Origin: Deltaproteobacteria bacterium | GTDB taxonomy: Bacteria; Desulfobacterota; Desulfobacteria; Desulfobacterales; UBA11574 | NCBI GenBank assembly: GCA_019308685.1 | Contig: JAFDHQ010000009.1 | Coordinates: forward strand, 1-43,773 | DNA: 43,773 bases | Direction: 5' to 3' | Shown here: positions 26,895 through 37,055 of the stretch, in pieces | Layout: each line of letters starts with the position of its first letter | Numbering within the stretch: position 1 is the stretch's first letter | Translations under genes and position numbers: made by a program | Notes under the pieces: generated by a model | Told to the model about the DNA's origin: nothing | What the model saw: only the letters and a program-made list of their open reading frames with translations | Databases searched by the model: none

Positions 26895-31435
<4,541 letters not shown>

Positions 31436-31436
<1 letters not shown>

Positions 31437-32473
31437 TGAGCGAAACTATGAAAAACCGTTACGAGTTCGTATTGCTGTTTGATGTAAAAAATGGAAATCC
31501 AAACGGTGATCCTGATGCAGGGAATCTTCCCCGCATCGATCCTGAAACCGGGCATGGCATAGTGACCGATGTCTGTTTGAAGCGCAAAATTAGGAATTAC
31601 GTTGATTTAATTAAGGAAAATGCGGCACCTTATGAAATTCACGTGCGAGAGAGAGAATTTCTATCTGAACACCACAAACGGGCACATTTAGCTTTAGACA
31701 ATGAACGGTTATTTGTCCATGTTCCAAAAGACTTACGAAATGAGCTTGGAAATTACCAAAATTATCCTGAAGGAATGGGTTTTGAAAATGAAGGGATTTA
31801 TCTGAAGCTTAGTGTCGATTTAAATAGCAATAAAAAAGCTACTGGTAAACTCAAAGATCTTTCTGATGCTGCATTGGCAAAATTGAAAGAGTTGTTTGTT
31901 GATAGCAAGGAAGAGGTAGCCAAGAAATGGATGTGTAAAAATTTTTTTGATGTCCGAACTTTTGGCTCCGTAATGTCAACAGGAGACAAAACATGTGGTC
32001 AGGTAAGAGGTCCTGTACAACTTAGTTTTTCAAGAAGTATAGAACCGATTTTAGGGTTGGATATTGCTATGTTCCGTACTGCAGCGGTAAGGGTTGATGA
32101 GCCAACCGATAAAGGATTAGGCGCCAGAAAGTCGATTGTTCCCTATGGCCTTTACCGTGCACACGGCTTTATCTCGGCACCGCTTGCAAAACAAACCGGA
32201 TTTTCAGAGGAAGATCTGGAGTTGTTTTGGGATGCGCTGAAGAACATGTTCGATCATGACCGTTCCGCAGCCCGAGGTGAAATGGCTGCCCAAAAATTGA
32301 CTGTTTTTAAGCACGACAGTGAATTGGGAAATGCACCGGCGCACAAGCTTTTCGATCTGGTAAGAGTCGATAAAAAGGACAAATCTAAACCATGTAGAGC
32401 ATTTTCAGACTATGATGTGATCGTGGATAAAAGCGCTGTACCCCAAGGTGTTGAACTCTTGGAGCTGCTCTAA
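31436..32473 (+). CDS. cas7c: Cas7c/Csd2 backbone subunit
   Basis: The 345-residue RAMP protein begins with NRYEFVLLFDVKNGNPNGDP and DAGNLPRIDPETGHGIVTDV, the Csd2 signature. It continues with CLKRKIRNYV, FFDVRTFGSVMSTGDKTCGQ and RGPVQLSFSRSIEPI. Multiple copies coat the crRNA spacer. The start codon overlaps the cas8c stop (TAATG), with AGAGGGG upstream. After it the operon is broken by 416 bases with a higA relic. Confidence 0.96.
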
Positions 32474-32889: not shown

Positions 32890-33468
32890 ATGACTGACAA
32901 AGAAGATTTCCCACAACTCATCCCACCTCACGGCGGGTTTCGTGAATTGCAATCCTATCAGATGGCTGAGATTGTTTACGATGCGACGGTAATGTTTTGC
33001 AACCGTTTCATTAACCGGCGCTCCCGCACCCATGATCAGATGGTGCAGGCAGCGCGGAGTGGAAAACAAAACATTGCCGAAGGCAGTATGGCCTCAGGCA
33101 CCTCCAAAAAATTCGAACTTAAGCTCATTGGGGTGGCACGGGCGAGTCTTGAAGAGCTTCTGCTTGATTTTCAGGATTATCTGCGCCAGAAGGGGTTGGC
33201 CCTTTGGGGCAAGGATCACCCGAAAGCGCGACAAGTTCGAGCACTTTGCTATCGAAAGAATAGGTCCTATTTGACCTATAAGCCCTATATCAAAGACTCT
33301 CCTCCTGAGATTGCTGCTAATACCATGGTCTGTCTGATTCACCAGACTAACTATTTGCTTGATCAACAACTAAGGGTTTTAGAAAAGGCGTTTCTGAAAG
33401 AGGGTGGCTTCACAGAAAAACTTTATCATACCCGATTACAAATGCGTAATCGGAGAAGAAAGAAATGA
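32890..33468 (+). CDS. Four-helix-bundle (suffix-domain) protein embedded in the cas operon
   Basis: The 192-residue protein belongs to the four-helix-bundle group with a suffix domain (S23-like). It has LQSYQMAEIVYDATVMFCNR, then RSRTHDQMVQAARSGKQNIA and EGSMASGTSKKFELKLIGVA, then RASLEELLLDFQDYLRQKGL. The C-terminus is basic (MRNRRRKK). Its stop overlaps the cas4 start by 4 bp (ATGA), so it is translated with the adaptation genes. Relatives include intron-associated S23 proteins and the Avd accessory protein of diversity-generating retroelements, which bind nucleic acid or partner proteins. It is not a normal type I-C gene; a role in adaptation is only a hypothesis. Confidence 0.85.
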   Translation: MTDKEDFPQLIPPHGGFRELQSYQMAEIVYDATVMFCNRFINRRSRTHDQMVQAARSGKQNIAEGSMASGTSKKFELKLIGVARASLEELLLDFQDYLRQKGLALWGKDHPKARQVRALCYRKNRSYLTYKPYIKDSPPEIAANTMVCLIHQTNYLLDQQLRVLEKAFLKEGGFTEKLYHTRLQMRNRRRKK

Positions 33469-34127
33469 ACTACACCGAAGACGAACTTATACCACTGTCA
33501 GCCTTGCAGCACCTCCTTTTTTGCGAGCGTCAATGTGCTTTGATTCATGTTGAGCAGGTTTGGGTCGAAAACCTGTTTACGGCCGAAGGCAGAATCATGC
33601 ACGAACGGGTTGATATGGGGAACAGGGAATCCAGAGGCAATATCCGCATTGAGTATGGCATGCCGTTGCGGTCTTTACGCCTGGGCTTAACCGGCAAGGC
33701 CGATGTTGTCGAATTTCACCTGTTAAATGAAGAATCATCATCTGGGAGTAAATCCAAGGGGAAGTGGAAACCGTTTCCGGTTGAGTATAAACGTGGCAGA
33801 CCCAAAAAGGATAATTGCGACAAAGTTCAGCTTTGTGCTCAGGCTCTGTGCCTGGAAGAAATGCTGAATACTGAGATTTCAGAGGGGGCGTTTTTTTACG
33901 GGAAAACCCGCCGAAGGCAGGACGTAGCATTTGACAGGGCGCTGAGGCTGGAAACAGAAAAAGCGGCAAAACGAGCACATGAACTTATTAAAGCGGGGGA
34001 AACCCCGAAACCGGTGTATTCAAAAAAATGCGATAGCTGTTCTTTTGTGGGTTTGTGCCTGCCAAAAACCATAGAAAAAAGCCGTTCTGTAAACCGTTAT
34101 CTTAAAAACGCTATACAAAAATTATGA
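33465..34127 (+). CDS. cas4: Cas4 exonuclease
   Basis: The 220-residue RecB-like nuclease has a cysteine pair near the start (LLFCERQCALIHVEQ) and a C-terminal set CDSCSFVGLC for the 4Fe-4S cluster. The nuclease residues lie in GLTGKADVVEFH (Asp) and FPVEYKRGRPKK (Glu-x-Lys), with a downstream QLCAQALCLEEM (Gln). Cas4 helps choose PAM-containing prespacers and sets their orientation. It overlaps both neighbours by 4 bp. Confidence 0.95.
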   Translation: MNYTEDELIPLSALQHLLFCERQCALIHVEQVWVENLFTAEGRIMHERVDMGNRESRGNIRIEYGMPLRSLRLGLTGKADVVEFHLLNEESSSGSKSKGKWKPFPVEYKRGRPKKDNCDKVQLCAQALCLEEMLNTEISEGAFFYGKTRRRQDVAFDRALRLETEKAAKRAHELIKAGETPKPVYSKKCDSCSFVGLCLPKTIEKSRSVNRYLKNAIQKL

Positions 34128-35155
34128 AAAAACATCTCAATACTCTTTTCGTGACCACGCAAGGAGCCTATTTGGCCAAAGAAGGCGAAACCGTTGTTGT
34201 TAAAGTGGAACGAGAAGTTCGCCTGCGTTTGCCGATACACACATTAGGAGGAATCATCTGTTTTGGGAACATAATGTGCAGCCCATTCCTAATGGGATTT
34301 TGCGCCGAGCGTGATGTGGCTATCAGCTTTTTGTCAGAGTATGGACGCTTTCTTGCAAGAGTGCAGGGGCCTGTATCAGGAAATGTGCTATTGCGGCGCG
34401 AGCAATATCGACGCGCTGATGATATGGATGTTTCTGCAAATGTTGCAAAAGCTTTAGTAATAGGCAAACTTGCGAATTGCCGAACTGTTCTGCAACGTGC
34501 CCTGAGAGATCATCCCGATAAAATAAATAAAAGGGAAGTTCAGCGGGCATCACAGCAACTCAACAGCTTATTAATAGAGTTACAATCGGATTTGCCGTTG
34601 AATGTTGTTCGGGGAATAGAAGGAAAAGCAGCACATACTTATTTTTCCGTATTTGACCATCTTATTACTTCTCAGAAAAAAGATTTTTATTTTCACGGCC
34701 GAAATCGCCGGCCCCCATTGGACAATGTTAATTGTCTGTTGTCGTTTCTGTACACGGTTTTAATGCACGATATTCGTTCAGCACTTGAATGCGTGGGTCT
34801 TGACTCAGCTGTGGGGTTTTTGCATAGGGATCGTCCAGGCCGACCGGGTCTTGCTCTTGATCTAATGGAAGAATTCCGACCGTTTTTGGCGGATCGTTTA
34901 ACGTTATCATTAATAAATCTTGGCCAGGCAAAAAATAAAGGCTTCCAAAAAAAAGAATCCGGCGCTGTCTTAATGGATGATGAAATGAGAAAAATTCTTT
35001 TGGTTACTTATCAAAAACGCAAACAAGATGAAATATTCCATCCTTTTCTTGAAGAGAAAGTTTCAATCGGTATGTTATTTCATATCCAGGCCTTATTGCT
35101 GGCCCGATATTTGCGTGGCGATATAGACGGATATCCGCCTTTTATTTGGAGATAG
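34124..35155 (+). CDS. cas1: Cas1 integrase
   Basis: The 343-residue protein has the N-terminal beta domain (MKKHLNTLFVTTQGAYLAKE) and the helical catalytic domain with VVRGIEGKAAHTYFSVFDHL (Glu), VGFLHRDRPGRPGLALDLME (His and acidic residues) and EFRPFLADR. These are the metal-binding residues for spacer integration and all are present. The ATG at 34124 overlaps the cas4 stop. It is followed by cas2 after 9 bases. Confidence 0.97.
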   Translation: MKKHLNTLFVTTQGAYLAKEGETVVVKVEREVRLRLPIHTLGGIICFGNIMCSPFLMGFCAERDVAISFLSEYGRFLARVQGPVSGNVLLRREQYRRADDMDVSANVAKALVIGKLANCRTVLQRALRDHPDKINKREVQRASQQLNSLLIELQSDLPLNVVRGIEGKAAHTYFSVFDHLITSQKKDFYFHGRNRRPPLDNVNCLLSFLYTVLMHDIRSALECVGLDSAVGFLHRDRPGRPGLALDLMEEFRPFLADRLTLSLINLGQAKNKGFQKKESGAVLMDDEMRKILLVTYQKRKQDEIFHPFLEEKVSIGMLFHIQALLLARYLRGDIDGYPPFIWR

Positions 35156-35164
35156 GATAAGATT

Positions 35165-35455
35165 ATGCTTGTGTTGGTCAGTTATGATGTTTCTACAGTT
35201 GACAAGAAAGGTCAGCGCCGATTGAGGAGGGTGGCAAAAGTTTGTCAAAATTATGGGCAACGGGTTCAGTATTCGGTTTTCGAGTGTATTGTTGACCCTG
35301 CCCAATGGACAATTATGCGTCAAAGATTGATTGATGAAATAAAGCCTGAAAAGGATAGTTTGAGATTTTATTTTCTGGGTTCAAATTGGAAGCGACGCAT
35401 AGAACATGAAGGTGCAAAGCAAACGTTCGATCAGCAAGGCCCCTTGATTATTTAA
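35165..35455 (+). CDS. cas2: Cas2 adaptation protein
   Basis: The 96-residue ferredoxin-like protein begins MLVLVSYDVSTVDKKGQRRL, with the conserved Asp at residue 8. It continues with VQYSVFECIVDPAQW and LRFYFLGSNWKRRIEHEG. Cas2 dimers bridge two Cas1 dimers in the integration complex. AGGATAAG precedes the ATG. It is the last cas gene before the leader. Confidence 0.96.
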   Translation: MLVLVSYDVSTVDKKGQRRLRRVAKVCQNYGQRVQYSVFECIVDPAQWTIMRQRLIDEIKPEKDSLRFYFLGSNWKRRIEHEGAKQTFDQQGPLII

Positions 35456-35638
35456 AATCGCTTGCGAACCTCAAGTAAACATGTTTTGCCCGGAGGGTTC
35501 GCAATAAGAGGATGCTCTGTAAAATGAGACTATTAATAATGTGCTCTTTGAAAATCGGACAAGTAAAACCTATAAAGATTATAGTCTCGCAAAAACAATC
35601 AAATAAAAGTTAATTATACAATAAGTTATAACGAAACA
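35456..35638 (+). promoter_or_regulatory. CRISPR leader
   Basis: The 183 bases between cas2 and the only repeat are AT-rich near the repeat and non-coding, as expected for a leader carrying the array promoter and integration signals. A hairpin, GCGAACC/GGTTCGC inverted repeat, lies at about 35464-35502, just after cas2. The exact promoter could not be fixed. Confidence 0.65.
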
Positions 35639-35671
35639 GTCGCTCCCCGTGCGGGAGCGTGGATTGAAAAC
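35639..35671 (+). CRISPR. Single type I-C CRISPR repeat (array reduced to one unit)
   Basis: The 33-base unit reads GTCGCTCCCCGTGCGGGAGC followed by GTGGATTGAAAAC. Type I-C repeats are 32 bases with a GCTCCC/GGGAGC stem and end in GATTGAAAC; here one extra A lies in the tail. No second copy is in the window. The next 35 bases, up to the stop of the minus-strand gene at 35707, have the length of one spacer. Confidence 0.8.
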
Positions 35672-35706
35672 AGCCATCCCATTCATTTAACAAGTAAAAT
35701 AGATAC

Positions 35707-36813
35707 TTACGTATTATTTTCGACTTCTTCCCAATAAATATCAAATCTGTCTTGAGCATGGTTTTTTAATCGATTTATCTTTTCAATATCCTTGGCCTTT
35801 TGAATCGTTTTGGATATCATCCTTAGAGAATAAAGATATTTGTTTCGCAAATCCGGTCCTGCTTTATGCTTTTTAAGATGACTTTTCATTTTTTCAATCA
35901 TATGGTCAAGCATTGTTAACACTTCAATACGATATTGCTCTGTCTTATTTTTAACAATAATATCATTATGGATTTTAATTTTTTTGTATAATTCCCATGC
36001 TTCTTCCACCATGTCATAAGGTTGAGATGTTGATAAAATTTGCTTTAGTCTGTCAAAGTCCGTTATTACATCCGGTCTGTTTTTTAATTCAGGAAGATTT
36101 TTTGTAAATTGCTCAATGGATTCGGTCAAAGTTACCCAAAAATCCAGATGCCGGGTATAAAATTCTGATAACGTCTTTACGTCATCTACCAATTTAAGAA
36201 TTGGATCACGATTAATATAAAAAGCATTTATCAAGGAAAACGAGTCGAGTTTGGCAGATATCGTGTGAATCAAAGACAGTCCACGATCTATTTGTTCTTT
36301 GCCGGGAAAATATGGCCTTTTTGCATAAGATTTAAACGTGTTAATACAACTTTCCCAATGCTTTATTTCTTCTGCTAAAAGCCGGGAAAATTCGTACTGA
36401 TCATCATAATTGTCAATAATATTCTTTCCGGACAATTTTTGATAAAAACGCTTGGCAAACTGAAAAACGAAGTCATCCACGGATTTGTTTGCTGCTATTT
36501 CAACGTGTTGATCCGGATTTTCAAGTAAAATCTTTTTGACGTTATATGGATCGAGACTTTGTTTATTTATTTTAAAATGAATTTTCAATCCTTGCGCCAG
36601 CCAAAAAATATTTTGCAAAATCAAAAATTCAGGCCATTCATGCCGTTCTTTCACATATTGAATAAATTCATCTAAAACAACCTGTCCATGTGTTTCGATC
36701 TGCCGTTTAATATAATACAACAATCGATCTTGCTGTTTTGAATGATTATTTTCAAAACCAAATGTAAGCTGGCGGGGCCCTAATTCTATATCTTTAATGT
36801 CTTGCTTTCTCAT
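35707..36813 (-). CDS. Unrecognised helical protein, possibly related to BREX BrxC C-terminus
   Basis: The 368-residue protein is almost entirely alpha-helical and charged. It has no Walker motif, catalytic triad or membrane segment that I can see. Its layout (LPYFPGKEQ-type loop, SEFYTRHLDFWVTLTESIEQ, repeated long helices, KNKTEQYRIEVLTMLDHMIE) is faintly like the C-terminal third of BrxC/PglY ATPases of BREX systems, but I cannot establish this. It reads toward the CRISPR repeat and ends 35 bases from it. No ribosome site is obvious at the ATG, so it could be the tail of a truncated larger gene. Confidence 0.45.
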   Translation of the reverse strand: MRKQDIKDIELGPRQLTFGFENNHSKQQDRLLYYIKRQIETHGQVVLDEFIQYVKERHEWPEFLILQNIFWLAQGLKIHFKINKQSLDPYNVKKILLENPDQHVEIAANKSVDDFVFQFAKRFYQKLSGKNIIDNYDDQYEFSRLLAEEIKHWESCINTFKSYAKRPYFPGKEQIDRGLSLIHTISAKLDSFSLINAFYINRDPILKLVDDVKTLSEFYTRHLDFWVTLTESIEQFTKNLPELKNRPDVITDFDRLKQILSTSQPYDMVEEAWELYKKIKIHNDIIVKNKTEQYRIEVLTMLDHMIEKMKSHLKKHKAGPDLRNKYLYSLRMISKTIQKAKDIEKINRLKNHAQDRFDIYWEEVENNT

Positions 36814-37055
36814 TAATATTAGTATCGAGAACTATTTTCGTGTAACATCTCAAGAAATTATGGAGCCGGCTCAATATCACCATATAATATATCAGAACTT
36901 ATTGAGAACTTACACAAAATAAAAGGATGAAATCCAGATTAAATTTCGTAAAAAGTCAATGCAGATTTTAGGTTGCATTATTATCGTCAAAATGAATATA
37001 GATACTCATTAATCTTTTTAAGCTATATAAAATAAACGCGGGGAAAGAAAATCTG

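Follow-up and report, generated by a model that had tools for sequence, protein, structure and literature searches.

The locus analyzed here raises the question of what happened to the array of a CRISPR-Cas system in which a full complement of cas genes and a leader are followed by only one repeat. The window, that is, the entire stretch of 43,773 nucleotides from a Deltaproteobacteria bacterium (contig JAFDHQ010000009.1), was examined for the state of the cas genes, for further copies of the repeat, and for the organization of the same locus in congeneric genomes.

The cas operon

Searches with curated profiles identified a complete type I-C operon, cas3-cas5-cas8c-cas7 and cas4-cas1-cas2, all encoded on the plus strand. 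The cas3 gene (26895-29066) encodes a 723 aa HD nuclease-helicase that scored above the cut-offs of TIGR01587 and TIGR01596, and alignment with relatives showed that the HD, Walker A, DExQ, and QAAGR motifs are all present. The other effector genes are cas5c (Cas5d; about 29080-29712; TIGR01876, 1.9e-54), which putatively starts at M84 of a longer open reading frame; cas8c/csd1 (29709-31436), matching the full TIGR01863 profile (positions 2-588 of 588); and cas7/csd2 (31436-32473; TIGR02589, 1.5e-102). The adaptation genes are cas4 (33465-34127; TIGR00372, 4.6e-40), cas1 (34124-35155; TIGR03640, 4e-157, full length), and cas2 (35165-35455; TIGR01573, 5.4e-20). Profile coverage and the Cas3 motifs thus bear out the first-pass annotation, which considered the cas genes intact. 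Pseudogenization was ruled out on the same grounds together with the dN/dS values of 0.06-0.16 for cas4, cas1, and cas2 in comparison with the closest congener, Desulfobacteraceae bacterium Eth-SRB2, values that cover the whole time since the split of the two lineages, not the time since any loss of the array.

Directly 5' of cas4, the plus strand also encodes a predicted four-helix-bundle protein (32890-33468; TIGR04258, 6.8e-23). An ORF with 78-84% identity likewise precedes cas4 in about a dozen further type I-C loci from Desulfobacterota and Nitrospirota (L039, L040, L046, L055, L056, L058, L060, L062, L066, L073, L076, and L110), and remnants were found in five further loci. With a dN/dS of about 0.05-0.13, the ORF has the hallmarks of a putative accessory gene linked to CRISPR.

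The leader and the single repeat

The 183-base leader (35456-35638, plus strand) shares 72% identity with its counterpart at the 130-repeat array of Eth-SRB2 and contains the conserved elements TCGCAAAA and AGTTATAA..GAAACA, the leader-end elements being intact. It is followed by the only repeat of the window (35639-35670, plus strand), which reads GTCGCTCCCCGTGCGGGAGCGTGGATTGAAA plus a terminal A and lies 3' of cas2 and the leader. Positions 1-31 are identical to those of the Eth-SRB2 array repeat, so that 31 of the 32 positions match, and the CGCTCCC/GGGAGCG stem-loop is intact. This is a genuine repeat rather than a chance match, because it is identical over these positions to the array repeat of a relative and is preceded by a leader with a conserved tail. 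What had been described as an extra A in the 3' tail is compatible with an insertion (GAAAAC); the simpler reading is a C-to-A change at position 32 followed by a trailer that starts with C.

No second copy of the repeat was found in the window, and none with up to three mismatches in the source genome (283 contigs, 94.7% complete). The same genome contained no array of ATTGAAAC-ended repeat units, and a looser TTGAAAS pattern yielded no more matches than the control, that is, background only. The description of exactly one repeat after the leader therefore stands, and the suggestion that the system now works on another array finds no support in this 94.7% complete genome.

Two other cas loci were detected in the source genome. 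One (L143, contig C215, 1697-4635) consists of a CRISPR-associated primase-polymerase gene (NF040561) with cas1 and cas2, lacking effector genes and without an array on its 12-kb contig. The other (L144, contig C60, 2748-14838) is a type I-B operon, also without an array on the contig, in which cas3 is followed by an apparently frame-broken copy of cas4 and then by a second cas4-like ORF, near the contig end.

The same locus in related genomes

The closest genome of the same genus is that of Eth-SRB2 (G002, locus L038), with a Cas1 that is 95% identical to the one encoded in the window. In this genome, the same 31-base core repeat occurs 129-130 times at the same position relative to the leader. 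The array is followed on its 3' side by a 1.1-kb trailer, which carries a gene for a PIN-domain toxin and an AbrB-like gene, then by a minus-strand gene 82% identical to the gene at 35707-36813 of the window, and then by the same downstream operon, with 92% nucleotide identity to the window. In a second congener (G003), at least four near-identical repeats are located at a contig end, followed by a trailer of about 0.5 kb and the same minus-strand gene (73% identity). Neither trailer is related to the other or to the sequence of the window. The proposal that the array of the window was deleted is supported because these close relatives hold larger arrays, of 130 and at least four repeats, at the syntenic place.

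In the second congener, the type I-C array trailer, between the array and the minus-strand gene, also contains two type I-E-like 29-nt repeats (GTGTTCCCCACAGGCGCGGGGATGAACCG) separated by one spacer-sized stretch (L140, contig C123).

The minus-strand gene of the window (35707-36813, stop codon at 35707-35709) encodes, as a stand-alone gene, a protein resembling the C-terminal third of BREX BrxC (NF033441 positions 768-1115 of 1173; PF25792). The first-pass annotation allowed that the array might have been overwritten by this neighboring segment. In both congeners, the gene already is the trailer-side neighbor of the array, which rules out an invading segment. Given this gene order in two congeneric species, the gene is the ancestral, ordinary trailer-side neighbor, and the missing part is the array, together with any trailer that used to follow it.

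Assignment of this gene to a BREX system was considered and rejected, the match being confined to the above portion of the profile and a full-length BrxC with the N-terminal P-loop ATPase being absent. The stand-alone protein, of about 355-370 aa and without the ATPase, is conserved in at least G002, G003, G006, and G015, in the latter two next to other genes (nucleotidyltransferase, type I restriction), and evolves with a dN/dS of 0.27-0.29. Directly upstream of the gene, positions 36814-36840 may be what is left of the initial codons of a gene for a PIN-domain toxin (KIVLDTN); they resemble the PIN gene that is intact in the Eth-SRB2 trailer. Positions 36842-36900 belong to a dispersed intergenic repeat of about 58 bases that occurs in numerous places across several congeneric genomes, with 80-91% identity.

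The repeat end and the adjacent 35 bases

To the related type I-C loci that could be parsed, in a survey that misses some array variants, the altered last base can be compared copy by copy. Repeat position 32 departs from the majority base of its own array in 4 of 28 terminal copies versus 1 of 1009 internal copies (Fisher p = 2e-6), with the normal base kept in most terminal repeats (24 of 28). The last repeat of the second congener is also deviant at this position (T). The C-to-A change in the window falls in the class that is enriched in terminal repeats, a comparison made with the arrays of other loci. Because of this skew, the A can be taken to mark a terminal-type repeat: the window repeat most resembles a trailer-end repeat, an identity that is statistical.

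The 35 bases that separate the repeat from the minus-strand gene had been called spacer-sized. The segment does end at the stop codon of that gene, as noted in the first-pass annotation; it is not a demonstrable spacer, given that at least approximately its last 10 bases are native flank. The flank (35696-35706) aligns with that of the gene in the second congener from 35696 and in Eth-SRB2 from 35702. Because these last 5-11 or so bases of the segment align to the gene flank in the congeners, its length is a coincidence of spacing, and the segment does not represent a complete spacer enclosed by repeats. The proposed search of the segment against phages and plasmids gave no convincing match (best E-value 0.2), and no exact 25-base match was found among viral contigs. 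The remaining stretch (35671-35695, at most about 25 bases), which has no homology in the congeners and matched neither phages and plasmids nor viral contigs, may be a spacer stub at the junction or a short trailer native to the locus.

Origin of the single-repeat state

Taken together, these observations make it probable that this is a type I-C locus in which collapse has reduced the array to one repeat. All spacers would have been lost through recombination (or replication slippage) between the repeat next to the leader and the one at the trailer end. What remained would be the leader and one repeat whose 3' variant is that of the former last repeat, with the former trailer and neighbor gene behind it; what is seen in the window is exactly one full-length repeat. 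Production of the Cas proteins is expected to continue. With no spacers left, there would be no guide, so that interference is expected to be silent at present. We infer that the leader, the repeat, and Cas4-Cas1-Cas2 would, in principle, remain able to take up new spacers by naive adaptation.

The main alternative, which we consider possible but less probable, is an assembly collapse: the organism would carry a normal, strain-variable array, the low-coverage spacer edges of which were pruned during assembly, such that the leader, a repeat, and the trailer were joined in one contig. The source assembly is a draft of 283 contigs in which none of the three cas1 loci was found to have an array nearby, and the sequence expected of such an artefact is the sequence observed. 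The terminal-type A does not discriminate between a real collapse and an artefact because an artefactual join would show the same base. However, the usual failure of assembly at such loci is breakage. Of the 80 related Cas1 loci compared, most of which come from metagenome drafts, 31 lie on contigs that terminate about 105 bases or less from the last repeat detected, whereas in only two (L043 and L074) does the sequence continue past a single repeat, as in the window. Moreover, each of the two other cas loci of the source genome has its own reason for lacking an array: the primase-polymerase-cas1-cas2 locus has no effectors, and the type I-B locus has a broken cas4 near the contig end.

A non-homologous deletion with one end inside the first spacer and the other in the flanking sequence of the BrxC-like gene is unlikely. 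Under this scenario, the A would be a chance mutation and the up to approximately 25 bases at 35671-35695 a spacer remnant, compatible with the lack of homology of this stretch to either congener. The altered last base then needs a separate explanation, given that only 1 of 1009 internal repeats is altered, and the stretch matches no phage, plasmid, or viral contig. Even less credible is the possibility that the emptied leader-repeat is a maintained state, either as a permanently naive recorder or as the source of a leader-driven single-repeat RNA that serves as a non-defensive Cascade guide. Finally, a CreA-like regulatory guide, in which the repeat handle and the following 35 or so bases of a leader-driven RNA would direct Cascade to a chromosomal target, has a precedent in the one-repeat guide RNAs of CreTA (PMC9458426) and would fit the intact leader and repeat stem-loop, but is highly improbable: in a crude test, the best 12-base seed matches to TTC-flanked sites in the window were no better than those of shuffled guides, the end of the presumed guide is simply the flank of a gene, and no creT-like small gene was identified.

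If the collapse of the array to one repeat is real, the locus captures, in nature, the emptied phase of the proposed collapse-and-refill cycle of CRISPR arrays, with intact cas genes, with close relatives that have full arrays, and as one of three single-repeat cases among the compared type I-C loci. The terminal-repeat variant would then be readable as the scar of the collapse. Otherwise, the locus calls for caution in the interpretation of CRISPR arrays in draft metagenome assemblies.

Comparison with known systems

Collapse of this kind is already described in other bacteria. In Legionella, recombination between the first and the last repeat, denoted 'catastrophic collapse', leaves a single repeat of the last type, and when the type I-C array of L. 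pneumophila is lost altogether, the repeat that remains has, in the overwhelming majority of cases, the sequence of the last one (Deecker and Ensminger 2020, PMC7056967); in that article, Rao et al. 2017 is the work cited for type I-C collapse in L. pneumophila. Array collapse, as well as naive adaptation into solitary leader-adjacent repeats in the laboratory, is covered in a review (PMC8047081).

The two other loci that run on from one repeat, those of Meg22_24_Bin_96 (L043) and UBA2174 (L074), resemble the window in that a single repeat after the cas2 leader is followed by unrelated genes. They differ in the identity of the neighbor genes and in the repeat itself, which ends normally in the former and is 3'-degenerate in the latter. 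Both come from draft assemblies as well, and they could be real collapses or artefacts. A further type I-C-like repeat that stands alone, flanked by ordinary genes, in a genome from the same family (L145, G022 contig C368, 6045-6075), was examined as a parallel case and set aside, as no type I-C cas genes were detected on its 16-kb contig.

The Eth-SRB2 locus shares with the window the repeat, a homologous leader, cas4-cas1-cas2 genes that are 90-95% identical, the trailer-side gene, and the downstream operon. It differs in having about 130 repeats and another effector module, with Cas3, Cas5, and Cas7 only about 30% identical to those of the window; the border of this apparent module swap is sharp and coincides with the start of cas4 (33471 in the window).

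The collapsed arrays of L. pneumophila likewise consist of a single repeat left by first-last recombination, with the last-repeat variant, and in the second case (Rao et al. 2017) are also of type I-C. Those collapses were generated in the laboratory or deduced after repopulation of the array, whereas here the genome sequence of an uncultured member of the Desulfobacterota shows the emptied state itself.
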